A DNA stretch of 64,000 nt, taken from positions 1,054,001 through 1,118,000 of the forward strand of contig NZ_CP114777.1 in NCBI RefSeq assembly GCF_027359355.1, in the 5' to 3' direction. The position numbers and the translations under genes are program-made. Of the stretch, positions 31,545-51,373 are shown in pieces (position 1 is the stretch's first letter; the number at the start of each line of letters is the position of its first letter). The notes under the pieces were generated by a model. That model did not search any database. It was not told the origin of the DNA and was given only the letters and a program-made list of their open reading frames with translations. Source of the stretch: Prochlorococcus marinus str. MIT 1214. GTDB taxonomy: Bacteria; Cyanobacteriota; Cyanobacteriia; PCC-6307; Cyanobiaceae.

Positions 31545-33500
31545 TTGGAAACGAATATAAACACAGCTAGATCCCTTTTTAAAGAAAATAAGTATCAAGA
31601 GACAATTAATACTTGTAATCAAATACTAATTACTGATAAGAATTCAATTGAAGCTATCAAATTAATCGCAAAGTCATTTGTATCAATAAAAAGAATAGAA
31701 GATGCTCGTTTGTATTTAAATAAAGCCCTAGATATAAAACCTAATGATTATGAAGTAATTAAAGAACTAGGCAATACATATCAAGCTGAAGGCGATATTA
31801 ATAATGCTAAAAACTATTATAAAAAGGCTATAAGTATTAATAGTTCATATGCTCCAGCATTGACAAATCTTGGAGGCATTGAGCTGAATGCAGGTAATAA
31901 AAAAGAAGCATTATCTTTATTAATCAAAGCTACAGAATCAGATCCTAAATTAGCTCCTGCTTGGGTGAACCTTGCTAATGGATATCTTCAACTACAAAGA
32001 ATGCAAGAGTCAAAAATTGCTTGCTGCAAATCAATAGAGATCAATCCAAATCTCTTCAACTCTCATTTCTTTCTTGCGAACATACTGATTTGGGAGAAAA
32101 AACTTTTAGAAGCTGAGTTATCGCTATGCAAAGCCATTGAACTCAAACCCGATTTCTTCGAAGCTCATCTAAACCTTGGTGCAATTTTAAAAGATCTAGG
32201 AAAGCTAAAAGAAGCTGAATTATCGACCCGTAAAGCTATTCAATTGAATCCTAATAATGCCCAAGCATATTCCAATCTTGGAGGCATATTAAAAGATCTT
32301 GGCAATCTAGATGAAGCTGAATTATCGACCCGTAAAGCTATTCAATTAAGTCCTTGTAATGCCCAGTCATATTCAAATCTAGGAGACATATTAAAAGATC
32401 TTGGTAATCTAAATGAAGCCGAATTATCGACCCGTAAAGCTATTCAATTGAATCCTAGTTATACCGAAGCTTATTATAATCTTGGAGGCATATTAGGAGA
32501 ACTTGGAAAACTAAAAGAGGCTGAATTATTGACTCGCAAAGCTATTGAAATGAATCCTAATTATGCCGAAGCTTATTATAATCTTGGAGGTATATTAGTC
32601 GAACTTGGAAATAAAAAAGAGGCATCTATATTATACCGAAAATCAATCGAACTCAAACCTAATTTTGCTGATGCTTATAATAATCTAGCAACCATATTAA
32701 TAGATATTGGTGATTTAGAGGAAGTTGCTATACTATACCGTAAATCAATTAAACTTAAACCTAATTCCGCTTCATCGCATAGAGGTTTAAGTATCTATTT
32801 CTATCTAATCGGAAATCATGATTTAGCTTTAACTAGTATCTTAAAGGCCTATTCAATTGAACCAAAAGATTTAAGCAATAAAGTGTTATTAAATATCTTC
32901 AAAGGTCAAAGCATAATCAAAGAAAAAAGCCTAAATCAGAATTATAATGAAAGCGATCTAGAAGAAAAAGATTTAGATTTAAATCCATTAATTCTAAATC
33001 GACCAGTAGAAAAAGAACTTATAGATACTTTATACAATATCAAGGCTCAAGATCAGGCACTAAAACAAGCACCAACCTATGGGAATGCTATAGGTTCAAA
33101 CTATGAATTGTTTGATAGAGATGAATCAATGATAAAAAATATCAAAGACGACTTAACAAGTATTGCAATGAATTCTGTTAGATCTGATATTTTAATAGAG
33201 GCTTCTTTCTTTACAATATTTCGTTCAGGAGGTGGATTGATAAGTCATACTCATCTTAACAAACTGGATAGGTTGAATGGTTTAAATCTAGCAAGTAAAA
33301 AATTTTCTCTAGTGTATTATTTATCCGTAGGTGATCAAAAATGTGAAGAACCTGGAATTCTAAAACTTGAAGAACCTAATCAAGATATTCTTCCTACTAA
33401 TGGTTTGATAATTATCTTTCCCGCAGGAAGAAAACACTCTGTTTTTTATAAAGGTAAAAAAGATAGGATCATTATTGGTGTAAATTTTTATAAAATATAA
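31545..33500 (+). CDS. TPR protein with C-terminal 2OG-Fe(II)-oxygenase-like domain
   Basis: 651 residues from a TTG start. About eleven TPR units of 34 residues span residues 1-440 (repeated LGNLxEAELSTRKAIQLNPxxAxAYxNLGxILKDLG). The C-terminal 170 residues match the putative 2OG-Fe(II) oxygenase family (TIGR02466-like). His568 and His570 in SHTHLN, EEPGILKLEEP, His631 in GRKHSV and Arg641 before the terminal IIGVNFY are candidate iron and 2-oxoglutarate ligands. The classical HxD is HxH here. It may hydroxylate a protein bound by the TPR part (inference). No signal peptide. It lacks the N-terminal leader shared by the other three TPR proteins nearby. Confidence 0.82.
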   Translation: METNINTARSLFKENKYQETINTCNQILITDKNSIEAIKLIAKSFVSIKRIEDARLYLNKALDIKPNDYEVIKELGNTYQAEGDINNAKNYYKKAISINSSYAPALTNLGGIELNAGNKKEALSLLIKATESDPKLAPAWVNLANGYLQLQRMQESKIACCKSIEINPNLFNSHFFLANILIWEKKLLEAELSLCKAIELKPDFFEAHLNLGAILKDLGKLKEAELSTRKAIQLNPNNAQAYSNLGGILKDLGNLDEAELSTRKAIQLSPCNAQSYSNLGDILKDLGNLNEAELSTRKAIQLNPSYTEAYYNLGGILGELGKLKEAELLTRKAIEMNPNYAEAYYNLGGILVELGNKKEASILYRKSIELKPNFADAYNNLATILIDIGDLEEVAILYRKSIKLKPNSASSHRGLSIYFYLIGNHDLALTSILKAYSIEPKDLSNKVLLNIFKGQSIIKEKSLNQNYNESDLEEKDLDLNPLILNRPVEKELIDTLYNIKAQDQALKQAPTYGNAIGSNYELFDRDESMIKNIKDDLTSIAMNSVRSDILIEASFFTIFRSGGGLISHTHLNKLDRLNGLNLASKKFSLVYYLSVGDQKCEEPGILKLEEPNQDILPTNGLIIIFPAGRKHSVFYKGKKDRIIIGVNFYKI

Positions 33501-34387
33501 AACATAATGAAAGATAAATCTCAGTTTTATAGATCGCTTTCTCTAACTTAACTTTCAACTAGCGAAACAAGTGTGAGTTAAAATGAAACACATTGAACTA
33601 CTCAATCATTTATTTGATTAGGTTTTAACAATTTAGAACTTTTTTCTTCTCACTACTAAAATCAATAAATCTATCTATTAGATTAACGTTCCAGAAGATA
33701 AACCAAACTTATAGAACTAGGGAAGATTTGAAGAAAAATATCCCATTATCTACAGACAAATATATCAATTATGGTTTTAATAAACTAAATAATGAGCTGA
33801 TACTAGATTTTTCCGACCCGATTGTTTTATACATACTCAATAGCCAATCCAGCAAGTGAAATTATTTTCCTTACACAGGAGTGAAAGTCAATGGATTGGC
33901 AGTAAGGATTGATTCTTTTCTCCAGTGATATAAACTCTCACGACCTGAATAAGAATATAGTGGGATTAATTTAGTGATGCAACAAAAGAAACTGCCGCGG
34001 AGGGGGATGAGCTAATTAACCCAAAATCACCTATACCCGCCTCACAAGAAGCCACAACAAGCAGGTACATATTAATCAAGAGAATTGGCTCCCTTCTTTA
34101 AAGTAATTGTATATTAGGGACGCAGGTGAATAGATAAGCATCTCAACTCATTAAAACTTTAAAGAGTCGCAATAGAAGTGCTTGAACAAACCTTTGAATA
34201 TCGCTTAAAAGACATAAGCAAGTTGGATAACGTCAATCAAGTGATTTATTCATTCAGAAATAGTTCTATTTATCAAGCAAGCAATCTTTCATCGAACTCT
34301 ATAAATTAAATTAAAATAATCTTAGGAAGAGTCATAACAAAGGTATATTGAAAATACTCTTATTCAAGTTATACATTCTTAAAGATA
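33501..34387. other. Gene-free island stretch (887 nt)
   Basis: No credible gene. Around 33970-34020 the sequence TTAGTGATGCAAC...GAAACTGCCGCGGAGG... resembles the block that follows the tRNA-like copies at 38468 and 41369 (TTAGTGGCGAACCATAAA...ACGGCAGCGGAAGG), so a decayed third copy of that block lies here. An inverted repeat CCAATCCA / TGGATTGG is seen at about 33844-33899. The last 30 nt resemble the leader upstream of the other TPR genes. Confidence 0.45.
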
Positions 34388-35584
34388 ATGGTATCAAATA
34401 ATAAAGAGCAAGGGAAAAAGAAAATCCCTGAAGCCCAAACATTTCCTGTTCCATATACTTTAGATAAAAAAAAAGAAAATATTGGTATAAATACTAATAA
34501 TCTTTCTACTCCTTCTAAGCCTTCTAAGCCTTCTAAGCCTTCTAAGCCTTCTAAAGAAGAATTAATTAATCAAGCATTTAAGTTTCATAGTCAAGGAAAC
34601 TTTTCGGAAGCAGTCAAACTTTATCAATATTTAATCAATCAAGGTATTAATGATCAAAGAGTTTTTTCTAATTATGGAATCATATTAAAAAATCTAGGCA
34701 AATTAAAAGAAGCAGAATTATCCTTTCGCCATGCAATTAAAATTAACCCTGATTTTGCAGAGGCTCATTATAATCTCGGAAACATATTGAGAAATTCAGG
34801 GAAACTAAAAGAAGCAGCAAAATCCATTCTTACAGCGATTAAAATTAAACCTTCTTCGAATTCATACTTTGCTTATGCAAGTTGTCTTTATGAACTGAAA
34901 GAGTTGAATTCTTGCATCGAAAGTCTTTATAAATCTAAAGAATTAGTAAAGCAAAAGTCGGATTCACAAATAATAAAAGCGTCAATTATCGTAGCTGAAT
35001 CAGCAAAAAGCTTATCATTTAATTCCACTAATAAAATAAAAGAAAAAAAGCTTTTCGACAAAAGATTTGATAGGTTAATAATAAATAGAACAGTAGAAGA
35101 TGAACTTGTATCTTACCTGTATACAATGAAAACAAAAGGACTTGATGACAGCGGAGATAGTAGATATGGACCAGGTTTATGCACGGATTTTAAATTATTT
35201 GAGGACACCTCTCCTGTTATATCAAAGTTATCAAATGATTTGGAAGAGATTTGTAAAAAAGCGCTAGGAGTAAATAACATATTTTCTTGTGATTCATTTT
35301 TCAATCTTTTTGTCTCAGGCTCAGGGCAGCCACCACATTGGCACCTGAGTCAAGCAGATGAAAACTTTAATTTAGCTTCTAAAAAATATAGTCTCGTCTA
35401 TTATCTAGATATCGGTGATCAAGATTGTGAAGAACCAGGCATCTTAAAATTACATGACCCTGACGAAGAAATCTTACCTAAAAAAGGCATGATTATTATA
35501 ATAGGTGCTCAAAGATATCACTCAGTTTCATATCATGGAAACAAAAAAAGACTAATGGTAGGGGTTAATTTTTATGGCTTATAA
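34388..35584 (+). CDS. TPR protein with C-terminal 2OG-Fe(II)-oxygenase-like domain, leader-bearing
   Basis: 398 residues. The N-terminal leader MVSNNKEQGKKK...TFPVPYTL is shared with two other TPR proteins in the island. It is followed by a four- to five-fold Ser-Lys-Pro tripeptide tract (residues about 44-58, 9-bp DNA repeats) and about three TPR units (residues 60-180). The C-terminal domain parallels that of the 31545 gene: His317 and His319 in PPHWHL, EEPGILKLHDP, His378 in QRYHSV, Arg388, ending MVGVNFYGL. Predicted iron/2-oxoglutarate oxygenase-like; substrate unknown. Confidence 0.82.
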   Translation: MVSNNKEQGKKKIPEAQTFPVPYTLDKKKENIGINTNNLSTPSKPSKPSKPSKPSKEELINQAFKFHSQGNFSEAVKLYQYLINQGINDQRVFSNYGIILKNLGKLKEAELSFRHAIKINPDFAEAHYNLGNILRNSGKLKEAAKSILTAIKIKPSSNSYFAYASCLYELKELNSCIESLYKSKELVKQKSDSQIIKASIIVAESAKSLSFNSTNKIKEKKLFDKRFDRLIINRTVEDELVSYLYTMKTKGLDDSGDSRYGPGLCTDFKLFEDTSPVISKLSNDLEEICKKALGVNNIFSCDSFFNLFVSGSGQPPHWHLSQADENFNLASKKYSLVYYLDIGDQDCEEPGILKLHDPDEEILPKKGMIIIIGAQRYHSVSYHGNKKRLMVGVNFYGL

Positions 35585-36094
35585 AAAAACTTAATTTATG
35601 AATATTTAAAGAAAAGCTAAGAACTGTTTACCAGAAGATAAAGAAAAAATAACTACAAAACTGACAAAAATTTTAAGAGCATCATACCAAAACTATCAGA
35701 GAGATGTATCAGCTTAGCTTTCTAAAAGCGAATCAATAATTAGCTTAAAGAAGAGAAAAATTAATTGAGATCAAAAGGAATATCCATAAATGTTTCACGC
35801 ATAAATGCTGACATACCTCAACTAATTGAGGAGTATTCAGAGATGAATTAGCCAAATTGACAACTATAAATCCCCTATGCAGTAAAAGGCTAAGCACCAC
35901 ACAAAAATAAAATATGATTCATCAAGACAAACTTTTTAAAATTTAGAAGTTTTTACCAAAACCCAAAATAGAGAGGAATAACTGAGATCTTGCATCCTCA
36001 TAGAGATTTTTCTTCCCTCGACTAATACCCTTACATAAGGCACGTTTGCTATGGCATACTTACGGATAAACTTATATAGAAATTTATATCTGAT
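35585..36094. other. Gene-free island stretch (510 nt)
   Basis: AT-rich sequence with no convincing frame, tRNA or strong hairpin. AAAATAGAGAGGAATAACTGAG near 35966 is weakly like the tRNA-Ser 3'-end core, too degraded to call. Confidence 0.4.
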
Positions 36095-37090
36095 ATGGAC
36101 AATAATTGGGATATTTTACTTTCTGAATTTCGTAGACTTGGTGGAATAGCAGATAATATATGTCAAAAGGAAGGGGAATATGGGAGAGGTATCTTTTCTG
36201 TTAATCCAATTCTGAGAGCGAGAATTTTTACTCCATCAAAATTACTGATCAAAAAAGATGATATTTATTTAGAAGATAATAAATTAAGAATTAAAAAAGA
36301 TAAGGACTATAATCAAGAAATTAGAAATTTTTTTAATTTTTACCAAGATAACTTTTCATGGGGTTCCGGCGGAAAAGAAACAACAGAATTGTTTGAGAAA
36401 GGATTAAGTTTATTTAACTCAAATTTAAAAACATTAATTAAAAAATATACTTTAATTAATTTAGAAGAAAGGCACAAAGGCATATGGGATAATGTTATTA
36501 AAAATCAATTCTTGAATGCTAGAGCAGTTAATTTTAAAAATAGTTTAGTTATAGCTCCTATCTGGGACCTTGTAAATCATAAAGTAAGATCAATGCCTTT
36601 TATTATTACTGAAGAAGGAATAAGTACTCCAAATTATCCTGCAACAAATAGTGAGATAAGATATTCATATAATAATATTAGTCCTATAAAACGTTTTTTT
36701 TCTTATGGTTTTTTTTCTGAAGAAAGCATAGTATTTTCAATCCCATTTTCAATTAATATTGAGAATATTGGTATTCATATTTCATGTAAAGGAATGGGTC
36801 TTAGTAATGATTCTATGAAAATAGAAAGATCTGGTGATAACATTATTTTAGAGGGTTTACCTATCGCTGATGTTAATCATCCGAGATTGCCATATAATTA
36901 TTTTGATGAGATTATTAGGAGAATCGATCATATGAATATTCCACAAGATTTTTTATTGAAAATATTCGAATTAAATATTTCAATAAGAAATCAAATTATA
37001 TATGAATCTCAGTTAATAAACAACGAAGTCTCAAAGGAACTGACTAAAGTTATGAATTATGAAATCAATCTAATCTCATCTCATAATTAA
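36095..37090 (+). CDS. SET-domain protein (Rubisco-LSMT-like lysine methyltransferase fold)
   Basis: 331 residues. GEYGRGIFSVNPI (residues 27-39) is the first SET motif. NARAVNFKNSLVIAPIWDLVNH (about 141-162) corresponds to the SR...lvPl-D-lNH motif, with the Asn-His pair at 161-162. EIRYSYNN (187-194) followed by FFSYGFFSEE (201-210) matches the closing motif of LSMT/SETD3-type domains. It may methylate a protein lysine or histidine (inference). The 3' end overlaps the convergent TPR gene by 26 nt. Base composition is very AT-rich compared with core genes, consistent with island origin. Confidence 0.72.
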   Translation: MDNNWDILLSEFRRLGGIADNICQKEGEYGRGIFSVNPILRARIFTPSKLLIKKDDIYLEDNKLRIKKDKDYNQEIRNFFNFYQDNFSWGSGGKETTELFEKGLSLFNSNLKTLIKKYTLINLEERHKGIWDNVIKNQFLNARAVNFKNSLVIAPIWDLVNHKVRSMPFIITEEGISTPNYPATNSEIRYSYNNISPIKRFFSYGFFSEESIVFSIPFSINIENIGIHISCKGMGLSNDSMKIERSGDNIILEGLPIADVNHPRLPYNYFDEIIRRIDHMNIPQDFLLKIFELNISIRNQIIYESQLINNEVSKELTKVMNYEINLISSHN

Positions 37091-37952
37091 AACTATATGA
37101 ACCGGAAATTGACCATGACCTTAAAGACATAATTTTTTCTGAACATAATCTTGCTTCTTGTAATTTGCCAAGATCCCTCAATATATTTCCAAGACTGATA
37201 TGAGTATCTACGTAATCAGGTTTAATTTTAATTGCTTTGCGAGTAGATAGTTCTGCTTCTTGTAAGTTACCAAGAGCTTTCAATATTTTTCCTAGATTAT
37301 AATATCCCTCTGCGAAATCAGGTTTAAGTTCAATTGCTTTACGGTATAACAATTCTGCTTCTTTTGATTTTCCAATATCATTCAATATGATTCCCAGATT
37401 GGAATACGCCTTTGCGTAATTAGGATTGAGTTCAATTGCTTTACGTTGTGATAATTCTGCTTCTTGTAAGTTGCCAAGAGTTTTCAAGATATTTCCCAGA
37501 TTGTAATGCGCAATCGCGATATCAGGTTTGAGTTCAATTGCTTTGCGAGTAGATAATTCTGCTTCTTTTAATTTGCCAAGATCATTCAAGATGTTCCCCA
37601 GATTGCAATGCGCAATCGCGAAATCAGGTTTAAGTTCAATTGCTTTGCGAGTCAACAATTCTGCTTCTTTTAATTTGCCAAAGCTTTTTAATATGCCTCC
37701 ATAATTAGAAAAAACTCTGTAATCACTAAACCCTTGATCAATAAAATATTGATACTGTTTGGCTGCTTCTGAAATGTTTCCTTGAGAATGAAACCTAAAT
37801 GCTTGATTAATTATTTGTTCTTTAGAAGGTTTAGAAGGAGTATTTGTAGTAATAGTGATGTTTTCTTTGCTTTCTCCTAAAGAAAATGGAACTGAGAATG
37901 TTTTTACTTCAGTCACTTTCTTTTTTCCTTGCTCTTTATCACTAGATCCCAT
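37065..37952 (-). CDS. TPR protein, leader-bearing
   Basis: 295 residues. The leader MGSSDKEQGKKKVTEVKTFSVPF and TPSKPSKEQIINQAFRFHSQ precede about six TPR units of the form LGNLQEAELSxRKAIELxPDxAxAHYNLGxIL. A short non-TPR tail (SLRSWSISGSYSFNYEMRLD) replaces the catalytic domain found in its paralogues, so it may be a truncated relative. About 50 nt upstream of the ATG are nearly identical to the leader before the gene at 41546. Confidence 0.85.
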   Translation of the reverse strand: MGSSDKEQGKKKVTEVKTFSVPFSLGESKENITITTNTPSKPSKEQIINQAFRFHSQGNISEAAKQYQYFIDQGFSDYRVFSNYGGILKSFGKLKEAELLTRKAIELKPDFAIAHCNLGNILNDLGKLKEAELSTRKAIELKPDIAIAHYNLGNILKTLGNLQEAELSQRKAIELNPNYAKAYSNLGIILNDIGKSKEAELLYRKAIELKPDFAEGYYNLGKILKALGNLQEAELSTRKAIKIKPDYVDTHISLGNILRDLGKLQEARLCSEKIMSLRSWSISGSYSFNYEMRLD

Positions 37953-38570
37953 TATCTTCTACGAACTTATGATTTTATTAATTCTACTACTCATTATATT
38001 GCCATTTAATATCAGTATCGGCATTTAGAAAACTAGAACTGATTCATTACTTGAATCGTATTTGGATGTTTCTCTTCAGATCTTGCCAAATTTTTTCTAT
38101 TTGTTTATTATCTTCTGTTAATGAGTTTTTAGAGTGAGGATTAAAAGTAAGTCTGTCTTTAAAATCACTTCAATATAAGGCATAGTAAATTTCATCTAAA
38201 TTTTTAGCTATTACTTTAGATATTTTAATTATTGAAAAGTTAGGACATTCTCTGTAAGTCCTATTTATTCTCCATGAATATTTGTTTGTTAGGTAACATA
38301 ACACAAATATGATTACATTTATATGGAACTTTCCCCAACAACATTACCAACAACACACAGTGAATTAGTATGAACCCACCTGATTCCAATTGAACCACTC
38401 TATTCAGTCATATCAGTGGTTATGGGGGATTATGAACCTTTCTGAATCCGTCTGAATCCAATGAAAAACGTAGAGGGAGTCCGTTAGTGGCGAACCATAA
38501 ATAACGGCAGCGGAAGGAAATTAACTAAGCACCTGAGAAATAACTATATTCCCCCGCACGCAGAAAAATA
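37953..38570. other. Island spacer with tRNA-like repeat and shared flanks (618 nt)
   Basis: Contains the TPR-gene leader (37953-38005). The block at 38347-38467 is matched at 39557-39678, both starting CCAACAACACAC. A degenerate tRNA-Ser 3' end follows at 38468, then a block at 38480-38578 matched at 41382-41495. No gene is convincing. Confidence 0.6.
38468..38479 (+). repeat. tRNA-Ser 3'-end-like repeat, copy 1 (one mismatch)
   Basis: ACGTAGAGGGAG versus ACGGAGAGGGAG at the 3' end of the tRNA-Ser gene (plus-strand reading), in the same orientation. It is followed by TCCGTTAGTGGCGAACC, shared with the copy at 41369. Confidence 0.7.
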
Positions 38571-39425
38571 TTAATTAGCAATCAAATTTGATAAGTCAGG
38601 ATAATGCGAACTATCTTTAACTTCAGGTAAATCTATTCTAATGTTCTGATCTTTTCTGATAGCCAGTATATTAACAGAATGTACCTTATCAAATAAATTA
38701 TTTTCATTTTTAAAGAAGTTATTTTTATTGTAAAGAGGAATAATATGCCAGAATATTCTATAGTCTAAAGACCATATTAATTCAATTAATTCTTTTGATT
38801 TCTCAATGTAATTCGCATCATTCTCTACGTACAAAAAGGGTTTTGTTCTCTTTATTAAGTCAAAACCACCTTTAAGAACATTCACTTCCATTCCTTCAGC
38901 GTCTGTTTTTAAAAGTTTTAATCTTTGCAAATTTGCAAACCTATTATCTAAAGTATCAACCTTTGCTTGATGAACATTTGAAGACTTTTCTTTAGTAAGA
39001 CTAATTCCTGCAAAATTAGATTCCTCAGTAAAATCAAAATTAGGATAATAAAAATCCTCGCCCTTTTTATCCGATAAAGCAGAGTTAAAGCAAAAACAAT
39101 TCGTTATTGAGTTGATAGAGATATTTGCACAAAGATTTTGAAAAACTACATTTTGGGGTTCAAATGCAAATACTACTCCTTCATTAACAGTTTTTGCTAA
39201 AGCAAGTGTATGACTTCCAATATTTGATCCAACTTCAATTACGACATCACTAGAGGTCAAAATCTGTTTACATAAATCTATTTCTCCTTGCGACCATTCC
39301 CCATATTCTTTGATACTTTTACCGATATACATATCATTTTTGTTATAAACCATCCAACCATATCTCATTTTGATTAGATCGTTGAAACCTCCAAGATTTA
39401 TAAATTCTTTTTTAGAAATATCCAT
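38571..39425 (-). CDS. FkbM-family SAM methyltransferase
   Basis: 284 residues. SAM motif I VVIEVGSNIGSHTLALA, motif II VFAFEPQNVVFQNL, and the FkbM signature LLKTDAEGMEVNVLKGG. The family O-methylates sugars and other small acceptors; the acceptor is unknown here. The stop codon lies inside the repeat block that follows the tRNA-like copy 1. The gene thus fills the whole unit between tRNA-like copies 1 and 2. Confidence 0.88.
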   Translation of the reverse strand: MDISKKEFINLGGFNDLIKMRYGWMVYNKNDMYIGKSIKEYGEWSQGEIDLCKQILTSSDVVIEVGSNIGSHTLALAKTVNEGVVFAFEPQNVVFQNLCANISINSITNCFCFNSALSDKKGEDFYYPNFDFTEESNFAGISLTKEKSSNVHQAKVDTLDNRFANLQRLKLLKTDAEGMEVNVLKGGFDLIKRTKPFLYVENDANYIEKSKELIELIWSLDYRIFWHIIPLYNKNNFFKNENNLFDKVHSVNILAIRKDQNIRIDLPEVKDSSHYPDLSNLIAN

Positions 39426-39678
39426 AAATCCTTAAAAGTATTCCTTAACAACTTCTGAATACTACAAGCAACAACAACTCCTTATTTTAATTTAATATTT
39501 TTAGAAATAAATTGCATATAAATCAAAACGATATTACCTAATTCCAGAAAATTTTCCCAACAACACACGAGTGAATTAGTCTCAATCCACCTTAATCCAA
39601 TTGAACTACTCTATTCATTCATATCCAGTAGTTTTAGAGGATTATGAACTCTTCTGGATCCTTCTGGATCTAATAAAG

Positions 39679-39691
39679 AACGGAGAGGGAG
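39679..39691 (+). repeat. tRNA-Ser 3'-end-like repeat, copy 2
   Basis: AACGGAGAGGGAG is an exact match to the tRNA-Ser 3' terminus with its discriminator position, same orientation. It is preceded by two 10-bp-phased TCTGGATC units. Confidence 0.8.
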
Positions 39692-39923
39692 AAACTTTGA
39701 GGGACACCAAGAGAAATGTGGTGAAGTAGCATGACGCAAGTTGTTGAAATTATGGTGCTAATTCACCCAACACAACTAAAATGTTATTTAAGGAGCACAA
39801 TTACTGTCTAAAATATACTTTCAAAATGAAAAGGGGGACTCAAGTTCGCTGAAGCAGCAGGGTCCCTTTCTTAATGCCGTAAAACAGGTATTTTCTCTCA
39901 TGTTTCAATAATTTTGTTTGATT

Positions 39924-40057
39924 AGAACTGGGTTGGAGTTCTAGCACTTGTCTTCCCGTAGGTCAGGGAAGTGGTTAGTTTAAGGGAATCGGATTGTTCA
40001 CACGGATAAACAAGTGCTGAACTTAAAGGGGACGACCAAAATCTCGTCCCCTTCTTT
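39924..40057 (+). ncRNA. Candidate structured small RNA with terminator
   Basis: Four nested or sequential helices in 134 nt. AGAACT/AGTTCT (39924-39929 with 39937-39942). A long-range 9-bp helix AGCACTTGT (39943-39951) with ACAAGTGCT (40010-40018), enclosing CTTCCC/GGGAAG (39952-39957 with 39966-39971). Then a 10-bp terminator stem AAGGGGACGA/TCGTCCCCTT (40026-40053) followed by CTTTAA. No open frame explains it. I do not match it to a named cyanobacterial RNA. Confidence 0.5.
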
Positions 40058-40060
40058 AAT
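40012..40060. terminator. Terminator-like hairpin, repeat copy A
   Basis: Shared sequence AAGTGCTGAACTTAAAGGGG leads into a 10-bp stem with loop CCAAAATC, then CTTCTTTAATG. Copy B is at 40529-40577. It lies just past the stop of the small minus-strand gene pair, so it may terminate in both directions. Confidence 0.7.
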
Positions 40061-40068
40061 GGAAGAAA

Positions 40069-40239
40069 TTAAGGTTTCCAATACTCATCCCATTCATCCT
40101 GAAGTTCTGTCTGCGATAAAGAGTTGTAGAAACCTCTCCACTTCTTTTCTGAATTTGCGTCAGTTGCACTCAATGAAAGCATTAGATCTATTGCTTCCTC
40201 TTGCGTGAAGGATTTTCCCTTGTCTGATTTAAATATCAC
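40069..40239 (-). CDS. Small acidic protein (56 aa), GTG start
   Basis: Minus-strand frame VIFKSDKGKSFTQEEAIDLM continuing to QTELQDEWDEYWKP. The GTG directly follows the TAA of the upstream small gene, with no spacer, implying translational coupling. The charge pattern and amphipathic segments look like a real soluble protein. Function not recognised. Confidence 0.55.
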   Translation of the reverse strand: MIFKSDKGKSFTQEEAIDLMLSLSATDANSEKKWRGFYNSLSQTELQDEWDEYWKP

Positions 40240-40467
40240 TTACGAAGCAATCTCTTCCCAAGGATCACGTGAAGATAATTCCTTAAATGGTATCAATTTA
40301 AAATCACCTCTTCTGATACCACGACAGATTAATCCATTTGGATGTTCCCTCTTAAATATTTCAACTGCATCTTGTTTTCGTTCTGATGGAATAGTGACTT
40401 TATAAATCACCTCACCTGAATCACGAATCTTGTAAACAAAGTTCCAATCATATTCTTTGATATCCAT
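40240..40467 (-). CDS. Small hypothetical protein (75 aa)
   Basis: MDIKEYDWNFVYKIRDSGEV, then IYKVTIPSERKQDAVEIFKREHP..LICRGIRRGDFKLIPF. A compact alpha/beta pattern of about 75 residues. The ATG at 40467 is preferred to a TTG two codons upstream. It forms a two-gene unit with the 56-aa gene, bracketed by the two copies of the terminator-like repeat. No family recognised. Confidence 0.65.
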   Translation of the reverse strand: MDIKEYDWNFVYKIRDSGEVIYKVTIPSERKQDAVEIFKREHPNGLICRGIRRGDFKLIPFKELSSRDPWEEIAS

Positions 40468-40528
40468 TTGCAATTAACTACTTACTCATTATTGTTTTAA
40501 CTCACTTTGGTCTGATGAACCATTACAT

Positions 40529-40577
40529 AAGTGCTGAACTTAAAGGGGGCGACCAAAATCTCGCCCCCTTGTTTAAT
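40529..40577. terminator. Terminator-like hairpin, repeat copy B
   Basis: Same AAGTGCTGAACTTAAAGGGG lead-in as copy A. The stem AAGGGGGCGA/TCGCCCCCTT differs from copy A by a paired A-T to G-C change, so the pairing is kept. Loop CCAAAATC is identical, followed by GTTTAATG. Confidence 0.7.
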
Positions 40578-40591
40578 GCAAAACAATTATC

Positions 40592-40682
40592 TTGACCAAC
40601 TTGCATATATTAGTAGATTTGTACTATTCTAGTCCCTATCACCAAAAGCAAGGGAACCACGAAGTGAGCATCGTGTTTTTTG
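40592..40682 (+). ncRNA. Candidate short RNA with sigma70-like promoter and terminator
   Basis: A promoter-like TTGACC (40592-40597), 16 nt, then TAGATT (40614-40619) would start RNA near 40626. The transcript would hold TCCCT/AGGGA and then a CACGA/TCGTG hairpin (40658-40675) running into six T residues ending near 40681. Expected length is about 56 nt. It could instead be an attenuated leader of the DUF1651 gene at 40720. Confidence 0.4.
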
Positions 40683-40719
40683 TCTCTTCTTTTAAATATC
40701 ACCATCAGACATCAGTTAT

Positions 40720-41001
40720 ATGAATCAACCAATCAGAGAAGCATTGCCAACACCAACAGGATGGTTAGTTGCACCAACGAGAGAATTTTGTTTGTTCTTT
40801 ATTCGTGATCCGAAGTCGGTCATGGTTGCCCCAACTGTTTACACACAACTGTGGTATTGCCTTGAAGATGGCACTCCAACCAAATTGAAAAACACAAGAA
40901 GACTTGATTACGAATGTGCTGTAGAAACTTGGCATGAACTCTTATCTCAAGATTGGGAGTTAGTGGAGCATCAGCTCAATGCCTGTGTTGAAGCTGCTTA
41001 A
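40720..41001 (+). CDS. DUF1651 protein
   Basis: 93 residues matching the DUF1651 pattern recalled from marine picocyanobacteria: GWLVAPTREFCLFFIRDPKS, then LEDGTPTKLKNTRRLDYECAVETWHELLSQDW. The family is small, of unknown function, and spread across accessory regions of Prochlorococcus and Synechococcus. Confidence 0.75.
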   Translation: MNQPIREALPTPTGWLVAPTREFCLFFIRDPKSVMVAPTVYTQLWYCLEDGTPTKLKNTRRLDYECAVETWHELLSQDWELVEHQLNACVEAA

Positions 41002-41142
41002 TCAAGCACTGATATCACCCAACATTTCACAAAAAAATGAACCTTATGCAACAGCATGGGTGCATCTAAATCAATCAATTTCGTTATATCTAGTCCTCTT
41101 AAGGGGTTTGGGTATCTATGGAGCATCCTGAACCAAATTAAG

Positions 41143-41162
41143 AACGGAGAGGGAGGTATTCG
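41143..41162 (+). repeat. tRNA-Ser 3'-end-like repeat, copy 3
   Basis: AACGGAGAGGGAGGTATTCG matches the tRNA-Ser 3' end over 20 nt with one mismatch (T for G). The following roughly 90 nt are nearly identical to those after the copy at 43346. Confidence 0.88.
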
Positions 41163-41175
41163 TAGTAGGCGAACA

Positions 41176-41300
41176 TGGCAAGCGGTGGCAACCGATGGCA
41201 GAACTTTTTTGAAGAAGCCAAATCTCCTCACAACACTCCTCACAACAAACTTTTTAACACCGTGGCAATCGCTGGCAATCAGTGGCAATCAGTGGCAGAA
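41176..41300 (+). repeat. 10-bp-phased TGGCA repeats
   Basis: TGGCA begins at 41176, 41186 and 41196, then at 41263, 41273, 41283 and 41293, each set with an exact 10-bp step and each ending GGCAGAACTTTT. The same pattern recurs at 43379, 43389, 43399 and at 44569, 44579, 44589. One step is one helical turn, as expected for a protein-binding array. Confidence 0.85.
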
Positions 41301-41368
41301 CTTTTCTAGTGGTATCAGTAGATCTCAGCGGTTTTGGCAGTTATTGGCAACACCTGAATACAAAAGAA

Positions 41369-41381
41369 AACGGAGAGGGAG
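41369..41381 (+). repeat. tRNA-Ser 3'-end-like repeat, copy 4
   Basis: AACGGAGAGGGAG is an exact match to the tRNA 3' terminus. The roughly 110 nt before it (from 41261) are nearly identical to the sequence directly before the real tRNA gene (44567-44665). Confidence 0.88.
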
Positions 41382-41545
41382 TCCGTTAGTGGCGAACCAT
41401 AAAGAACGGCAGCGGAAGGGAATGAACTAATAAAGGGAGAAATACCTTTATTTACCCCCACATTTCCCCCCACGCAGGAAAAAGATTAATTAAGAGCCAT
41501 TAATTGAGTAGTAGAATTACTAAAACCATAAGTTGGTAGAGGATT

Positions 41546-43186
41546 TTGGTATCAATTGATAAAGATCAAGGAAAAAAGAAATTGACTGAAGTAAAAACAT
41601 TCTCAGTTCCATTTGCTCTAGAAGAAATCAAAGAAAATATCACTATTAATACTCATGCTACTTCTAAATCTTCTAAAGAAAAAATAATAAATAAAGCAAT
41701 TCAGTTTCATCTAAAAGGAAATATTAAAGAAGCAACAAAATATTATCAGTATTGTATAAATCAAGGTTTTAATGATCACAGAGTTTTTTCTAATTATGGA
41801 AGCATCTTGAAAGATCTTGGACACTTAAAAGAAGCAGAAACATCAACTCGCAAAGCTATTGAACTTAAACCTGATTACGCAGACGCATATTCCAATCTAG
41901 GAATCATATTAAAAAATCTTGGCAACTTACAAGAAGCAGAAATATCAACTCGCAAAGCTATTGAACTTAAACCTGATTACGCAGACGCATATTCTAATCT
42001 AGGAATCATATTAAAAAATCTTGGCAACTTACAAGAAGCAGAAATATCAACTAGCAAAGCTATTGAACTTAAACCTGACTTCGCAATAGCATATACCAAT
42101 CTGGGAAACATATTTTTAGATCTTGGACAATTACAAGAATCAGAAAAGTCCTATCGCAAAGCAATTGAACTTAAACCTGATTACGCAGATGCATATTCCA
42201 ATCTTTCCTATTTAGAGCTTTTAAAAAGTGATTACAAGTTTGGGCTAGAAAATTATGAGTTTAGATTTAAAAAAGAAAAACCTTCGTCACTTCACGGCAA
42301 TTCAAACCTGAAACGAATTACGAATAAAACATTACAAAAAGGAGAGAAAATCTTAGTCGTTAGTGAACAAGGCTTAGGCGATACTTTTCAATATATGAGA
42401 TACATTCCATATCTAAGAAATAAAGGTTTTGAGATTTCTTTTTGTACTCTAGAAAAACTACATTCATTAATCCAAGTATCAAATATTGAATCAAATCCAT
42501 TAAGTCCACAGGAGATTAATAGTGTGACTACAGGTCAATGGATCCCACTTTTATCATTGCCTAGAATTCTAAAAGTAAGTCCAAAGAATCCAATAGTTAC
42601 TAAACCATATATTCATTCAAAAAAAGAATTAAATAAGAAATGGAAAACAATATTCGCTCAAGAGAAAAGACCAATTATTGGTATTAATTGGCAAGGAGCT
42701 CCAGATACAGAAAAGACTTATCAAGGAAGATCAATTCCCTTAGAAACTTTTTCAATAATCTCTGATAAGCATGAGATAAGACTGCTTTCTTTACAAAAAG
42801 GGTTCGGTTCAGAACAATTAGATAATTGTTCATTTAAAAATAATTTTGTTAATTGCCAACCACAAATCGATTCCACTTGGGATTTTCTTGAAAATGCTGC
42901 CATCATTGAAAATTGTGATTTGATTATTACTTGTGATACTTCAGTTGCTCATTTAGCTGGAGGAATGGGAAAAAAAGTTTGGTTGCTATTAAGAGATATA
43001 CCCTTTTGGACTTGGGGACTGGAAGGCTCAAGTACATTCTGGTATCCGTCCATGAGGTTATTCCGACAAAAAGAACGACATAATTGGCAAGAGGTTATGG
43101 AGAGAGTATCAAGCGCTATTACAGAGGAGTTCAACCCTTCAAAATCTTCCCCCCACGCAGCACCCGAAAAAGAAAGATATACCTGA
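41546..43186 (+). CDS. TPR protein fused to a GT9-like glycosyltransferase domain
   Basis: 546 residues. The TTG start aligns with the ATG of its paralogues. Leader MVSIDKDQGKKKLTEVKTFSVPF; about five TPR units over residues 50-230, two of them near-identical at DNA level. The C-terminal domain (about 255-520) resembles heptosyltransferase-type GT-B enzymes: ILVVSEQGLGDTFQYMRYIP, IIGINWQGAPDTEKTYQGRS, and CDLIITCDTSVAHLAGGMGK with WLLLRDIPFWTWG. Probably modifies a surface glycan or protein (inference). It fills the unit between tRNA-like copies 4 and 5. Confidence 0.87.
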   Translation: MVSIDKDQGKKKLTEVKTFSVPFALEEIKENITINTHATSKSSKEKIINKAIQFHLKGNIKEATKYYQYCINQGFNDHRVFSNYGSILKDLGHLKEAETSTRKAIELKPDYADAYSNLGIILKNLGNLQEAEISTRKAIELKPDYADAYSNLGIILKNLGNLQEAEISTSKAIELKPDFAIAYTNLGNIFLDLGQLQESEKSYRKAIELKPDYADAYSNLSYLELLKSDYKFGLENYEFRFKKEKPSSLHGNSNLKRITNKTLQKGEKILVVSEQGLGDTFQYMRYIPYLRNKGFEISFCTLEKLHSLIQVSNIESNPLSPQEINSVTTGQWIPLLSLPRILKVSPKNPIVTKPYIHSKKELNKKWKTIFAQEKRPIIGINWQGAPDTEKTYQGRSIPLETFSIISDKHEIRLLSLQKGFGSEQLDNCSFKNNFVNCQPQIDSTWDFLENAAIIENCDLIITCDTSVAHLAGGMGKKVWLLLRDIPFWTWGLEGSSTFWYPSMRLFRQKERHNWQEVMERVSSAITEEFNPSKSSPHAAPEKERYT

Positions 43187-43345
43187 GATCTCCCTTCCCT
43201 TCAGTAATTTCCATTCCCCCCACACAGAACTCGGAATCTGTGGCACACTACGAACAGGTGCGAACTCTTTATTCTTCTAATCCCTTACTGCTACTGAGTT
43301 ATTTCTGTTTTCTGAACTTATACGAACACGCCCGAATCAATTAAG

Positions 43346-43365
43346 AACGGAGAGGGAGGTATTCG
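43346..43365 (+). repeat. tRNA-Ser 3'-end-like repeat, copy 5
   Basis: Same 20 nt as copy 3 (AACGGAGAGGGAGGTATTCG), one mismatch to the tRNA gene. About 110 nt of this copy and its downstream flank match copy 3 with a single difference. Confidence 0.88.
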
Positions 43366-43428
43366 TAGTAGGCGAACATGGCAAGCGGTGGCAACCGATG
43401 GCAGAACTTTTTTGAAGAATCCAAATCT

Positions 43429-43462
43429 CCTCACAACACTCCTCACAACAAACTTTTCAAAA
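43429..43462 (+). repeat. 34-nt direct repeat, left copy (right copy 44532-44565)
   Basis: The 34 nt starting CCTCACAACACTCCTCAC and ending CTTTTCAAAA are identical at 43429-43462 and 44532-44565, bracketing the FkbM gene at 43544. A single, uninterrupted version of the first 29 nt is at 41226-41254. Confidence 0.9.
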
Positions 43463-43543
43463 ATTCAAGGCTCAAATGAAATTTTTTAGTACTAGAAGAA
43501 CTAGATGGTGTAGTCTGAGATTTATTGAAATTGAAAATCTGAA

Positions 43544-44449
43544 GTGAGCATGATAAGTAGGGAAGTAGGTCTATTAGAAATAATTCGTTTAGTTCAATTA
43601 ATCAATAATAAAACAACGGCAAAAACAATTTCCGAGGTCACGGGAATCCAAGAAAATATACTAGATAATTATTATCGAGTACTAAAGCAAGACTCCTACA
43701 AAACGTTTGAACCGAATAAGTTAGATTTAATTATGGATACTTTGGCTATTTCTAGGAAGTTAAACATTGTACAAATTGGAGCCAATGATGGGAAAAGTGT
43801 CGATCCTGTATATAAACAAAATCTAAGACATGGTAAAAAGCTTTTATTAATTGAGCCTCAAAAGCATTACCGAGAAGCATTATTAAAAAACTATTCTACT
43901 TTCAAAGGTGAATTACATATCGAGCATGTGGCGATAGGGAACCAGGGTGAAAATCTAGAATTTCATATTTTAAAGCAAGATTATTGGGAAGAGTATGAGA
44001 AAAAGGTTGGGAAACCACCGAATGGAGTGTTTTCTTTGATCAAGAGTCAAGTAGCTCAAAGAGTGGCATCTAGATTAGGTATCAATTATTCAGATATCGA
44101 TAAATATATGACGACACTAAAAGTTGATATCGTACCTCTACAAAAACTCTTAAAAAAATATAATTTTGAAGAAATTGACGTACTTCAAATTGATGCTGAA
44201 GGATATGATTTTCAAATCATTAATTCACTTGAAGATATTAAACCTAAAATCATTCACTTTGAATCTTTCAACTTAACTCCAGAGGAGTGGATAGGTTTTA
44301 CAAGTTTTTGTGAAGAAAAAGGTTATGGCTTTATTCAAGGGATTCAAGATACTCTGGCTATATATGGCTCAAATACAAAACATCAAATATACAAATTAGG
44401 CGAGGAAAATAAATTTAGATTTCCAATGAAAATTAAAAAAAATATTTAA
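43544..44449 (+). CDS. FkbM-family SAM methyltransferase
   Basis: 301 residues (ATG at 43550 is an alternative to the GTG at 43544). SAM motif NIVQIGANDGKSVDPVY (about residues 76-92), KLLLIEPQKHYREALL, and FkbM signature VLQIDAEGYDFQIINSL. It is only distantly similar to the FkbM protein at 38571. The N-terminal 70 residues are helical and not part of the usual domain. Acceptor unknown. Bracketed by 34-nt direct repeats. Confidence 0.88.
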   Translation: MSMISREVGLLEIIRLVQLINNKTTAKTISEVTGIQENILDNYYRVLKQDSYKTFEPNKLDLIMDTLAISRKLNIVQIGANDGKSVDPVYKQNLRHGKKLLLIEPQKHYREALLKNYSTFKGELHIEHVAIGNQGENLEFHILKQDYWEEYEKKVGKPPNGVFSLIKSQVAQRVASRLGINYSDIDKYMTTLKVDIVPLQKLLKKYNFEEIDVLQIDAEGYDFQIINSLEDIKPKIIHFESFNLTPEEWIGFTSFCEEKGYGFIQGIQDTLAIYGSNTKHQIYKLGEENKFRFPMKIKKNI

Positions 44450-44667
44450 AGCATAAAAAACCTTCCTCACAACAAAATCTCTCAGATCTATTTGTACAAC
44501 TGGAATCTCTCCTCACAACAACTTTTAATCCCCTCACAACACTCCTCACAACAAACTTTTCAAAACTGTGGCAATCGCTGGCAATCAGTGGCAGAACTTT
44601 TTCTAGTGTTATCAGTAGATCTCAGCGATTTTGGCAGTTATTGGCAACACCTGAATACAAAAGAAAA
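44450..44667. other. Spacer at the tRNA 3' side
   Basis: Several CCTCACAACA-type repeats (44464, 44512, 44532), three phased TGGCA sites, then TGAATACAAAAGAA leading into the tRNA 3' end. No gene. Confidence 0.7.
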
Positions 44668-44756
44668 CGGAGAGGGAGGGATTCGAACCCTCGACAGAAG
44701 TTACCTCCTGTAACTCCTTAGCAGGGAGCCGCTTTCAACCACTCAGCCACCTCTCC
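44668..44756 (-). tRNA. trnS-GCU: tRNA-Ser (anticodon GCU)
   Basis: The minus strand folds as a class-II tRNA. Acceptor stem GGAGAGG/CCTCTCC, discriminator G, D arm with GAGTGGTTGAAAGC. Anticodon stem GCTCC/GGAGT around loop CTGCTAA (anticodon GCT), a long variable arm, and T arm GAGGGTTCGAATCCCTC. The 3' CCA is not encoded. It marks the right border of the island; its 3' end (44666-44685 on plus) is the parent of the five tRNA-like repeats. Confidence 0.97.
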
Positions 44757-44816
44757 ATTGAAAGTACCTTATCAAGTCAAAGCTCAAAAGCATGGAATTG
44801 TGATCCTCTACAAATT

Positions 44817-46016
44817 TTAAGTGACAACTCTAGGAAGTCGATTTCTGAAACTGCAAAGAACTTCCCATGGAATAGATCCAGAGAACTCACACCAATTCTG
44901 AGGTGAAATGCACACTTCACCATCAGTTCCAAGAAGCGTTAACACTTGACCTGTTCTAATATCTGGTTTATCTGTTATGTCAAAAACCATTTGATCCATA
45001 GCAATTGCACCTACTTGAGGCACTAAAACACCATCTATTGAGGCTGATATTTTCCCAGAAAGATTTCGACTTACACCGTCTGCATAGCCAATAGCAACTA
45101 CTGCAAGCTTGCTTTTTCTTTGAGTTTTAAAAAAATGTCCGTACCCAACTCCTGTCCCTTTTGCAACCTCCCTAACCAAAGTAACTCGAGCCTTAACTTT
45201 CAAAGCTGGATGAAATTTTAAATCAGAATCAAAATCATTAACAGGAAAATAACCATACAAGCTCAGTCCTACTCGAACCATATCAAAATGAAGACGACTA
45301 TCTGAAAGTGTTCCCGCAGAATTGGCTAGGTGTCTGCATAAAAGCTTATTTCTTGCCCCCAAATCCTTTAAAACTTTTTCAAATCTTGTTAATTGAATCT
45401 GTGTAAAACCAAGTTGAGCATTATTTTCAAGATCTTCATCAGCAATTGCCAAATGACTATATATGCCTTTTAAGGATATATTTTTTAAAAAATCAATTCT
45501 AGAAATCAATTCTTTTACCTCATTGCAATTGCAGCCAAGTCTCGTCATACCAGTGTCAACTTTTAAGTGAATAATATATTTTTTATTCTTATTTTCGGCT
45601 ATGTTATTGCAAATTATCGCCTCACGAATTCCACTAATCGTAGGGATAAGATCCCAGAAGAAGGCAGAGTAAAGCTCTTCTGCATTAATTAGATTCCCAA
45701 GAATTAATATCTGACACTTCAAGCCCGAATTTCTTAATTGTATTCCCTCTTCTAAAGTTGCTACTCCAAGGCTATCAGCGCCTCCAATCAAAGCAGCCTT
45801 TGCAACAGTCTCTGCACCATGTCCATATCCATCAGCTTTTACAACTGCCATTAGCAAACAATTTTCGCCAATAAAATTTTTCAAGACTCTTGCATTATTT
45901 TCAATAGCTTTCGGATCGACCTCAACCCATGCACGACTACGCGGATCGGGGTTCATCACATTTTCGGTTGTCCCAACAAAAGTGAAAGATCTTTCACTTC
46001 TCTTAATCTTTGACAT
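44817..46016 (-). CDS. alr: Alanine racemase
   Basis: PLP enzyme making D-alanine for peptidoglycan. The PLP-lysine motif is VVKADGYGHGA and the catalytic tyrosine region is GVGYGHFFKT; AIDYADGV-type sequence appears as AIGYADGVSR. At 399 residues it carries about 20 extra N-terminal residues; an ATG at 45956 (MNPDPRSRAWVEVDP) is a plausible alternative start. Confidence 0.95.
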   Translation of the reverse strand: MSKIKRSERSFTFVGTTENVMNPDPRSRAWVEVDPKAIENNARVLKNFIGENCLLMAVVKADGYGHGAETVAKAALIGGADSLGVATLEEGIQLRNSGLKCQILILGNLINAEELYSAFFWDLIPTISGIREAIICNNIAENKNKKYIIHLKVDTGMTRLGCNCNEVKELISRIDFLKNISLKGIYSHLAIADEDLENNAQLGFTQIQLTRFEKVLKDLGARNKLLCRHLANSAGTLSDSRLHFDMVRVGLSLYGYFPVNDFDSDLKFHPALKVKARVTLVREVAKGTGVGYGHFFKTQRKSKLAVVAIGYADGVSRNLSGKISASIDGVLVPQVGAIAMDQMVFDITDKPDIRTGQVLTLLGTDGEVCISPQNWCEFSGSIPWEVLCSFRNRLPRVVT

Positions 46017-49995: not shown

Positions 49996-50346
49996 CTATA
50001 CAAGCTCAACGATGGCCATTTCTGAATTATCACCACGTCTTGGAGTAGTTCTCACGATCCTTGTATAGCCCCCTTGACGATCTCCATAACGCTCTTGGGC
50101 CTTTTCAAAAAGCGCATGAACCAACTGCTTATCGTATACATATCCGATAGCTCTTCTTCTTGAAGAGAGGCTACCATCTTTAGCCAAAGTAATCATTCGC
50201 TCCGTCTCATCTCTCACAGCTTTTGCTCTTGCTTTGGTAGTTGTAACTCTACCTTCACGAATTAATTGAGTGGTTAATCCTCTTAAAAGTGCCTTCCTTT
50301 GATCAGCAGGGCGACTCAATTGTGGGATTCGACGTTGATGACGCAT
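49996..50346 (-). CDS. rplQ: Large-subunit ribosomal protein L17 (bL17)
   Basis: 116 residues, [20 protein letters not shown] and [18 protein letters not shown] identify it. It follows rpoA by 39 nt, the usual end of the alpha operon. Confidence 0.98.
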
Positions 50347-50385
50347 TGGATTAGCTTTGAAATGTAGTAGTAAGAAAACTGAAAA

Positions 50386-51324
50386 TCATGCAGAAGTTCT
50401 ACTTTGAGGAATAGAAATTCCAATTCTCTCTAGAGCTTCAATAACTTCATCCGCTGATTTAGAACCGAAGTTCTTAATTTCCAACAAATCCTCATAACTA
50501 AAACCCATCAAGTCTGAAACAGAGTTCACTTGGGCACGTTTTAGGCAGTTATAAGCTCTTACGGATAAGTTTAACTCCTCGAGGGGGATTTGAGCCTCTG
50601 CTGCAGGCTCTGGCTCTTCAGGGATCTCTTCTACCATTGAAACAGTGGCAAGAGGCTGAAAAAGTTCGATTAATTGATTTGCAGCTTCCGCCAATGCATC
50701 GTCTGGAGTAGTGGATCCATCAGTGACCAACTCCATTTTCAATCTTTCTCTGGTAGATCCCCCCTCAGCGACTGCAGTTTCATCAATCGTAAAATTAACT
50801 CTGTTTATAGGCATAAACACAGCATCTATTTGCAGCAAATCAATTGCGCTTGTCTCTTCGTTTCGTCTATCGACTGGTCGATAGCCAACACCTCTTTCTA
50901 CATGTAGCTCTAGTTCTAAGTTGTGACCCTCCTGAACTGTTGCGATTGGCCGATCACCATCAACGACTTGAACTTGAGAAGAGAACTGAATATCCTTCGC
51001 TTTTACTTCAGCTGGACCAGTAACAACAATTCTTCCTATCTCAAGATCCTGACTATGACTGTCAACTGAAATCTGTTTGCAATTTAGAAGAATGTCTAAA
51101 ACGTCCTCTCTTACACCAGGGATTGTTGCATATTCATGATTAACACCTGCGATCCTAACAGCAGTAACTGCGCTGCCCTCGAGCCCGCCCATTAATACTC
51201 TGCGTAAAGAATTACCCAAAGTTGTTGCTTGACCTCTTTCAAGAGGTCCAATCAGGAAAACGCCTGTTTGGGAACGATCACTAGCAACTTGATGGTCGAT
51301 CCTGTCAATCTGGTATTGCAACAC
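50386..51324 (-). CDS. rpoA: RNA polymerase alpha subunit
   Basis: 312 residues. N-terminal dimerization domain with [23 protein letters not shown]; an acidic linker ([20 protein letters not shown]). The C-terminal domain, with [20 protein letters not shown] and [19 protein letters not shown], contacts UP elements and activators. Confidence 0.99.
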
Positions 51325-51373
51325 GGTCTAATGCGATGTGGAAAAAAGAAAATTTCACTTAAGTGAATAGATT

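Follow-up and report, generated by a model that had tools for sequence, protein, structure and literature searches.

The islands of Prochlorococcus vary in genes that, to judge from their cargo, probably modify the cell surface, which raises the question of how single genes enter and leave genomes as streamlined as these. We analysed a 64,000-nt stretch (the window) of the single-contig 1.93-Mb genome of Prochlorococcus marinus str. MIT 1214 (NZ_CP114777.1, positions 1,054,001-1,118,000), in which the 13-bp 3' end of a tRNA-Ser(GCU) gene, AACGGAGAGGGAG (the core), recurs in five extra copies beside the gene, all on the plus strand (Table 1). What placed these copies there, and what moves between them? 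The sequence-only reading of the window had proposed serial integration, or a cassette-like array, at tRNA-end repeats, and the comparisons described below support that interpretation. The array was probably built by serial integration of small, attP-like, non-autonomous elements at the tRNA 3' end through a recombinase acting in trans. What the locus offers is a concrete unit of exchange, namely a frame about 0.2 kb long whose ends are defined, which exists both gene-free and loaded and has no tyrosine recombinase of its own.

With up to two mismatches allowed, the core was found seven times in the window, a count reached in none of 100 shuffles (mean 0.80, maximum 3), which confirms the presence of 3'-end copies in one orientation beside the gene; the seventh match, at 55392 on the minus strand, has two mismatches. 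The core is not scattered genome-wide. At one mismatch or fewer there are nine matches in the whole genome, six of them in the island, one at 314235 that by similarity resembles a tRNA-Ser(GGA) end, and two others. The five units between the copies measure 1212, 1464, 226, 1977 and 1320 bp, in agreement with the lengths first estimated.

Arrays at tRNA-Ser across the genus

The exact 13-mer was present in 36 of 41 genomes of the genus, and a backward control gave zero in each. In 654 kb of loci from the genus, 86 cores with at most one mismatch lay in one orientation and none in the opposite one (L059 and L086 were excluded from the core counts, since their matches are chance occurrences inside genes). 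The tRNA is included in 35 loci, some genomes supplying two contigs; 20 of these hold at least two cores, and five (L051, L068, L077, L083 and L085) are unoccupied. In L068 and L085 the left flank of the window (to about 31000-31047) runs almost directly into the tRNA, and the inserted region in MIT 1214 is therefore about 13.6 kb. In L070 a 217-bp gene-free unit is the sole occupant of the site. L076 and L077 share their left flank, but the former carries one 6.7-kb unit and the latter is empty; other loci hold up to five core-bounded units. Unoccupied, one-unit and multi-unit versions of the site thus exist, in line with the gain or loss of whole units that the sequence-only reading had named as support. 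Arrays are present in the single-contig genomes G000, G086, G110, G146 and G161. The core together with the tRNA of this lineage was also found in 30 records of named genomes, mostly Prochlorococcus single cells (e.g. AG-402-O21), the remainder being a few Synechococcus and one further cyanobacterial metagenome-assembled genome.

The 44 units between neighbouring cores show a gap in size: eight are 201-257 bp long, none 258-866 bp, 25 are 867-3013 bp and 11 are longer (maximum 7052 bp). The eight short units are gene-free.

Many units share an attP-like frame

Many units have a common layout, which reads core, left arm of about 85 bp, paired 12-bp sites, cargo, paired sites, right arm of about 120 bp, and core. 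Several arm families, grouped by average-linkage clustering, occur among the units. The arms have a 10-bp period (z = 18.2 for 70 right ends and 10.0 for 49 left ends), which was also detected among arms of less than 72% identity (z = 7.6 for 22 right and 6.3 for 24 left ends), and right arms approximate TGAAC-N5 three times, continuing into the core. At the internal sites the period is 12 (z = 3.8-4.0). Most of the 12-bp-spaced pairs are found at a distance of 83-99 bp from the left core and of 118-143 bp from the right one; many filled units have such sites on both sides of the cargo, and gene-free units mostly have one pair. An internal motif, drawn from the gene-free units themselves, was found near 27 of 44 left and 33 of 44 right unit ends, at a density of 7.6 per kb in the first 200 bp versus 0.35 per kb in the flanks. 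The left and right arms of eight unit types share more 5-mers than expected (85 vs 47.8 in the permutation control with non-overlapping windows, 0.0002). When the arms were searched for with hidden Markov models (HMMs), 102 of 238 matches lay away from a good core, some being relic boundaries and others the internal repeats of units; none of the 102 fell in the conserved flank to the right of the tRNA. The attP site of phage lambda is about 240 bp long, and the gene-free frame is about equal in size.

The relation between frame and cargo is seen within the window, where the 226-bp unit 3 is the frame of the 1320-bp FkbM unit 5 minus the gene. With the cores included, the left 122 bp of these units are 98.4% identical and the right 162 bp 89.5%, and the FkbM gene is bracketed by a 39-bp direct repeat that is single in unit 3, whose internal pair starts at about 41226 and 41238 (+83/+95). 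One left arm is common to the units after 38467 and 41369 and another to those after 41143 and 43346; likewise, one right arm precedes both 38467 and 39679, and another precedes 41369 and 44666.

These features suggest how a unit might enter. The element would be an attP-like frame of about 200-257 bp when gene-free, which may carry one or a few genes. An arm-binding-type integrase, encoded elsewhere or brought in transiently, would recombine the circular frame into the core at the tRNA, so that the tRNA is rebuilt and older units are pushed away. The cargo would sit between copies of the internal paired site and could be lost, leaving the gene-free frame. One could also envisage gene capture at two levels, with a trans-acting recombinase inserting frames at the core and cargo being loaded and unloaded between the paired 12-bp sites. 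We hold this extension to be rather doubtful; if true, the tRNA would act like an integron docking site with no integron parts.

An integron-like array would be one in which folded single-strand sites are recombined by an integron integrase in trans. The one-orientation array of small cassettes at one anchor fits such a system, and the integrase is absent here as in clusters of attC sites lacking integron-integrases (CALINs, as the term is used in the cited part of PMC11389934). However, two gene-free units fold no better than shuffles (z = -0.55 as DNA and -0.47 as RNA), the arms are direct 10-bp repeats, and the core is a tRNA end. We consider an integron-like origin extremely improbable, and membership of the array among integrons or CALINs was rejected on the lack of attC-type single-strand folding in these two units.

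Breakpoints are enriched at the core and a whole unit recurs

Pairs of unit ends were compared across the core. In 51 pairs with the same left arm, identity was 0.27-0.60 before the core, 0.96 within it and 0.81-0.96 after it, and in 119 pairs with the same right arm the corresponding values were 0.85-0.94, 0.97 and 0.21-0.52. Because these pairs were picked for one similar and one dissimilar arm, we added a test of BLAST-match ends without that selection, based on same-strand matches of at least 120 bp and at least 85% identity among the 24 loci that hold at least two cores. Internal match ends lay within 10 bp of a core in 425 of 1324 cases against 1.8% expected, and after de-duplication in 18.2% of 653 cases against 1.7% expected. 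Ends are thus strongly enriched at the repeats among genomes of the genus, as the sequence-only reading predicted.

Whole-unit comparison between genomes yielded eight pairs, three of which represent one unit of about 870 bp in L048, L052 and L056. This unit, which contains no recombinase, is 95-96% identical between the loci, compared with 73-90% in the chromosomal flank. In L056 it has other neighbours on both sides, and L048 and L052 differ from each other on one side. The arm that precedes it is f-type in L048 and L052 but g-type in L056, and the left arm that comes next is a different one in each locus. Among the other pairs, one is 94% identical (its flank was not measurable) and four are 77-89% identical, which is lower than the flank in the two of them that have a flank value.

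Unequal homologous recombination between repeats could in principle shuffle units, with the core only marking old insertion points. The arms and the TPR genes are repeats long enough for this, and most alignment ends lie away from cores. Yet unlike arms are joined at the 13-bp core, within 10 bp, about 18 times above expectation, and unoccupied sites are filled exactly at the core. A length of 13 bp is too short for ordinary RecA-type exchange. Shuffling by homologous recombination is in our opinion a very improbable origin of the array.

Where is the recombinase?

No tyrosine recombinase was found in the fetched arrays, either with the profile PF00589 or by phmmer. PF00589 had matches at E<=0.001 in 37 of the 41 genus genomes, none of them beside a fetched tRNA-Ser array, and in single-contig genomes the matches are far from the arrays; the genome of MIT 1214 encodes four tyrosine recombinases, all hundreds of kb away from the window's array. 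The expectation that a recombinase acts in trans or has been lost therefore stands. A phmmer search with 23 recombinases against the open reading frames (ORFs) of L044-L086 and L148-L167 returned only a protein of about 390 aa, in the non-array locus L059. Frames of 387-399 aa with a PF00589 match are present in 33 of the 41 genomes of the genus (their identity as a single gene was examined in L059 only), and the array genomes G086 and G130 have one PF00589 match each, a 390-aa frame. This common recombinase is a candidate helper. It resembles Xer-type proteins weakly (26.5 bits vs a cut-off of 220), and a sequence comparison at E<=0.01 gave no relative in the PDB. In L090 (9064-10224, minus strand) the protein of about 390 aa is encoded beside a hemH-like gene, named by eye.

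PF00239 gave matches in 20 of 41 genus genomes, one about 50 kb from the array in G227 and one near units, in L073. The L073 protein is an XisF-like serine resolvase of 185 aa, whose gene (10427-10984, flipped) lies between a 2-mismatch core (about 10189) and a tRNA-Phe. The contig carries no tRNA-Ser, and the gene is about 0.24 kb from the 2-mismatch core and about 3 kb beyond the last good one. Conjugation or mobilization genes were absent from the 20 island proteins scanned with Pfam.

The lack of a resident tyrosine recombinase would also be explained if full-size autonomous elements, tycheposon-like or prophage, had integrated serially and decayed to their ends plus useful cargo, with nothing moving in trans now. 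Several observations are compatible with such remnants. The window's distant unit boundaries are relics and those near the tRNA are intact, the internal repeats would permit cargo loss that leaves a gene-free frame, and in G110 and G214 tRNA-Pro is occupied by elements that encode a tyrosine recombinase, although these elements, judged by eye, lack phased GAAC arms and have different ends. Nevertheless, no founder with a tyrosine recombinase was found in the fetched same-genus tRNA-Ser loci, the recombinase-less 0.87-kb unit recurs at high identity in different surroundings, and the size gap together with the recurrent frame is unlike the outcome of random decay. We think it unlikely that the units are only remnants. 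The gradient from relics to intact units also fits the entry of new units beside the tRNA, as far as the window is concerned.

Related loci in other genera and in viruses

Similar units were found at tRNA-Ser in other genera, in loci chosen because they match the arms or core of the window (26 of 201 genomes matched). G093 (205 bp) and G135 (2.26 kb) have them at tRNA-Ser(GCT), and G166 (239 bp) and G116 (3.9 kb) at tRNA-Ser(CGA), which ends in CGGAGAGGGTG; the distal core of all four units has one mismatch or none. We also examined 40 further loci from other genera, taken among the matches listed (six are shorter than 5 kb). A tRNA-Ser ending in the same 13 bp is present in 38 of them (18 GCT, 20 GGA), and none of the 38 has a second core at one mismatch or fewer or, as far as was found, a tyrosine recombinase. 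The absence of second cores argues that the tRNA sequence by itself does not account for the arrays. No core clusters were seen elsewhere in 400 genomes among the matches listed, and none of the loci covered, whether from the genus, from the fetched cross-genus set or among the 38 further ones, showed an integrase-bearing relative at tRNA-Ser. The tRNA matches many phage records, which among the matches listed are mostly tRNA-Ser genes.

A number of results weigh against serial integration in trans and have to be set beside the evidence for it. A helper recombinase was not found, nor was an excised circle or a transfer seen among the sequences; the viral and phage sequences searched showed no arms, the exact 16-mer core being present in seven viral contigs, none with arms, two arm patterns being absent from viral sequences, and 381 bases giving no blastn match to phages. 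The serine resolvase near the decayed core in L073 means that the arrays are not free of every recombinase. About two thirds of the alignment ends lie away from cores, so other recombination also reshapes the island, and of the five whole-unit pairs for which the flank was measured, two show lower identity than the flank does. Decay of the core with distance from the tRNA is evident in the window but not in other loci; L048, for example, has four cores and all are perfect. The frame is not uniform: 10-bp repeats are not clear in H-type left arms, a terminator makes up the h-type right ends, and the internal motif is missing from E/F-type left ends. The arm-matching test used eight hand-picked units, reached only 0.006-0.04 with 6-mers, and matched the H..c unit poorly. 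Finally, many of the genomes are single-cell assemblies and possibly chimeric.

Relation to known tRNA-associated elements

The best reading is that the array is a variant of the kind formed by cis-mobilizable elements (CIMEs), microCIMEs and additive islands, and that its units work like CIMEs or microCIMEs. Descent from an integrative and conjugative element (ICE) or an integrative and mobilizable element (IME) is part of the CIME definition; here the likeness lies in the layout of the units. Most units have recombination-site repeats, a core plus an arm, at their ends, the unoccupied site is known, and integrase genes are lacking in the sense that the fetched arrays have no tyrosine recombinase and the L073 resolvase lies past a decayed core. 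According to the cited part of PMC7563491, CIMEs and microCIMEs of Streptococcus salivarius are arranged in tandem at one site, are flanked by att-type repeats and have no recombinase, like the units described here, and microCIMEs are gene-free at 130-220 bp, compared with 201-257 bp here. According to the same source, the Streptococcus elements were detected exclusively as tandem partners of ICEs, decayed ICEs or IMEs, two or three to a group, whereas here a locus has up to five core-bounded units, the site lacks a tyrosine recombinase, the arms fall into several families and the phased frame recurs. The locus suggests that gene-free, att-only elements, earlier reported in Streptococcus, exist in a cyanobacterium at a site where no resident helper was found.

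Cassettes added at a tRNA and delimited by copies of its 3' end, as seen here, are also the mark of additive flexible genomic islands. In Methylopumilus, 20-bp tRNA-Lys end repeats in variable number precede islands of 330 bp-42 kb with 1-63 genes (PMC10872708), and in Alteromonas a tRNA is a target for gene cassettes (PMC4119200); an arm structure or a gene-free frame is not described in the parts of these papers cited here. The Dehalococcoides ssrA islands (PMC3146451) likewise form a tandem series on the downstream side of an RNA gene, with 20-bp copies of the gene's 3' end between them, and 15 of 31 have no integration module. They differ in that 16 of 31 have a serine-recombinase module, and the cited portion of that source does not mention gene-free units. 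Tycheposons, as described in papers that cite the original work, share the Prochlorococcus host, the tRNA anchor and the cargo with the array, but they encode a tyrosine recombinase, which is missing from the fetched array units. The putative P-SS2 attachment region of MIT9313 (PMC2784084, in the part cited) has five pseudo-tRNA-Met and five copies of a 36-bp match, which were attributed to possible phage integration and old transposition; it resembles the array in having repeated tRNA pieces in a Prochlorococcus island, yet involves another tRNA. No account of the array was found in the portions of the literature covered on tycheposons, Prochlorococcus tRNA islands, additive islands, CIME accretion and microCIMEs, a set that did not cover the original tycheposon description.

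The island in MIT 1214 and its cargo

The core copies of the sequence-only reading stood, but the extent that it gave to the array did not: the island is larger and has relic boundaries to the left. To the left of 38344 the arms are relics only, with modest E-values by arm HMM, and near the tRNA the boundaries are intact.

Table 1. Features of the tRNA-Ser island in the window (window coordinates)
Feature	Position	Strand	Evidence or remark
Whole variable island, conserved left flank to tRNA-Ser(GCT)	31048-44666		Absent from genomes with unoccupied site
Relic right arm, decayed unit boundary	31247-31288	+	Arm HMM match, E=4.8e-4
Relic left arm, decayed unit boundary	33971-34084	+	Arm HMM match, E=1.7e-4
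Relic of 256-bp-type (H..c) unit	35960-36066	+	Two arm HMM matches, E=1.8e-6 and 1.9e-4
Right arm of preceding unit	38344-38466	+	38344-38479 83% identical to 39554-39691; 10-bp phased repeats
Core copy 1, one mismatch	38467-38479	+	Core search
Unit 1 cargo, FkbM methyltransferase	38571-39425	-	PF05050, E=1.5e-13
Core copy 2	39679-39691	+	Core search
Unit 2, small ORFs including a 77-aa ORF and a DUF1651 gene	39692-41142		Pfam and other searches
Unit 2 77-aa ORF	40240-40473	-	No match in Pfam, NCBIfam or PHROGs
Unit 2 DUF1651 gene	40720-41001	+	PF07864, E=5.1e-27
Core copy 3	41143-41155	+	Core search
Unit 3, gene-free, two arms and one pair of 12-bp sites	41156-41368	+	Arms same as unit 5
Core copy 4	41369-41381	+	Core search
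Unit 4 cargo, 546-aa TPR protein	41546-43186	+	TPR families (Pfam)
Core copy 5	43346-43358	+	Core search
Unit 5 left 39-bp internal repeat	43424-43462	+	97.4% identical to 44527-44565
Unit 5 cargo, FkbM methyltransferase	43544-44449	+	PF05050, E=1.2e-15
Unit 5 right 39-bp internal repeat	44527-44565	+	Single copy in gene-free unit 3
Core at real tRNA 3' end	44666-44678	+	Core search and ARAGORN
tRNA-Ser(GCT), anchor (attB-like) site	44667-44757	-	ARAGORN, Rfam

By Pfam, the cargo of the island consists of TPR proteins, the two FkbM methyltransferases, DUF1651 and small or unknown ORFs. The assignments of the FkbM and TPR genes made from the letters alone held, but the label GT9 for the protein at 41546-43183 did not, as it has no such Pfam match at E<=0.001; the C-terminal part of this unit 4 protein is glycosyltransferase-like by eye only. 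RNAs supposed to lie in the 1.5-kb unit were not recovered, Rfam at gathering thresholds giving only the tRNA in 28000-46000. The units themselves are real, although they carry from none to several genes rather than strictly one. Ten island proteins of L047/L048 include 2OG-Fe(II) oxygenases, a methyltransferase, TPR-sulfotransferase and TPR-oxygenase fusions and a TPR protein, with four lacking a Pfam family, and seven small or unknown proteins (one of them DUF1651) had no PHROGs match. In the checked examples overall, the cargo is mostly TPR proteins, FkbM methyltransferases and other modifying enzymes.

Some further features of these loci were recorded. A terminator-like element is repeated in unit 2 (40012-40071 and 40529-40589, copies 90% identical), and this element forms the right end of ~870-bp units in L048, L052 and L056. 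The start of a TPR gene is duplicated in opposite orientation (37294-37993 vs 41505-42204, 80.6% over 700 bp), possibly a site for inversion by homologous recombination. In the left part of L083, a single-cell contig, 2923-16713 matches window 50186-63982 in reverse, which reflects either an inversion or an assembly chimera. Elsewhere in the genome of MIT 1214 (stretch 1755000-1774000; L087, 1226-9571), an element with a 326-aa tyrosine recombinase lies between two copies of a tRNA-Thr/tRNA-Tyr pair. Just to the left of the island, 30038-30919 on the minus strand encodes a 293-aa lysine/alanine-repeat protein, whose repeat region differs in length among related loci (281 aa in L048 and 101 aa in L079).

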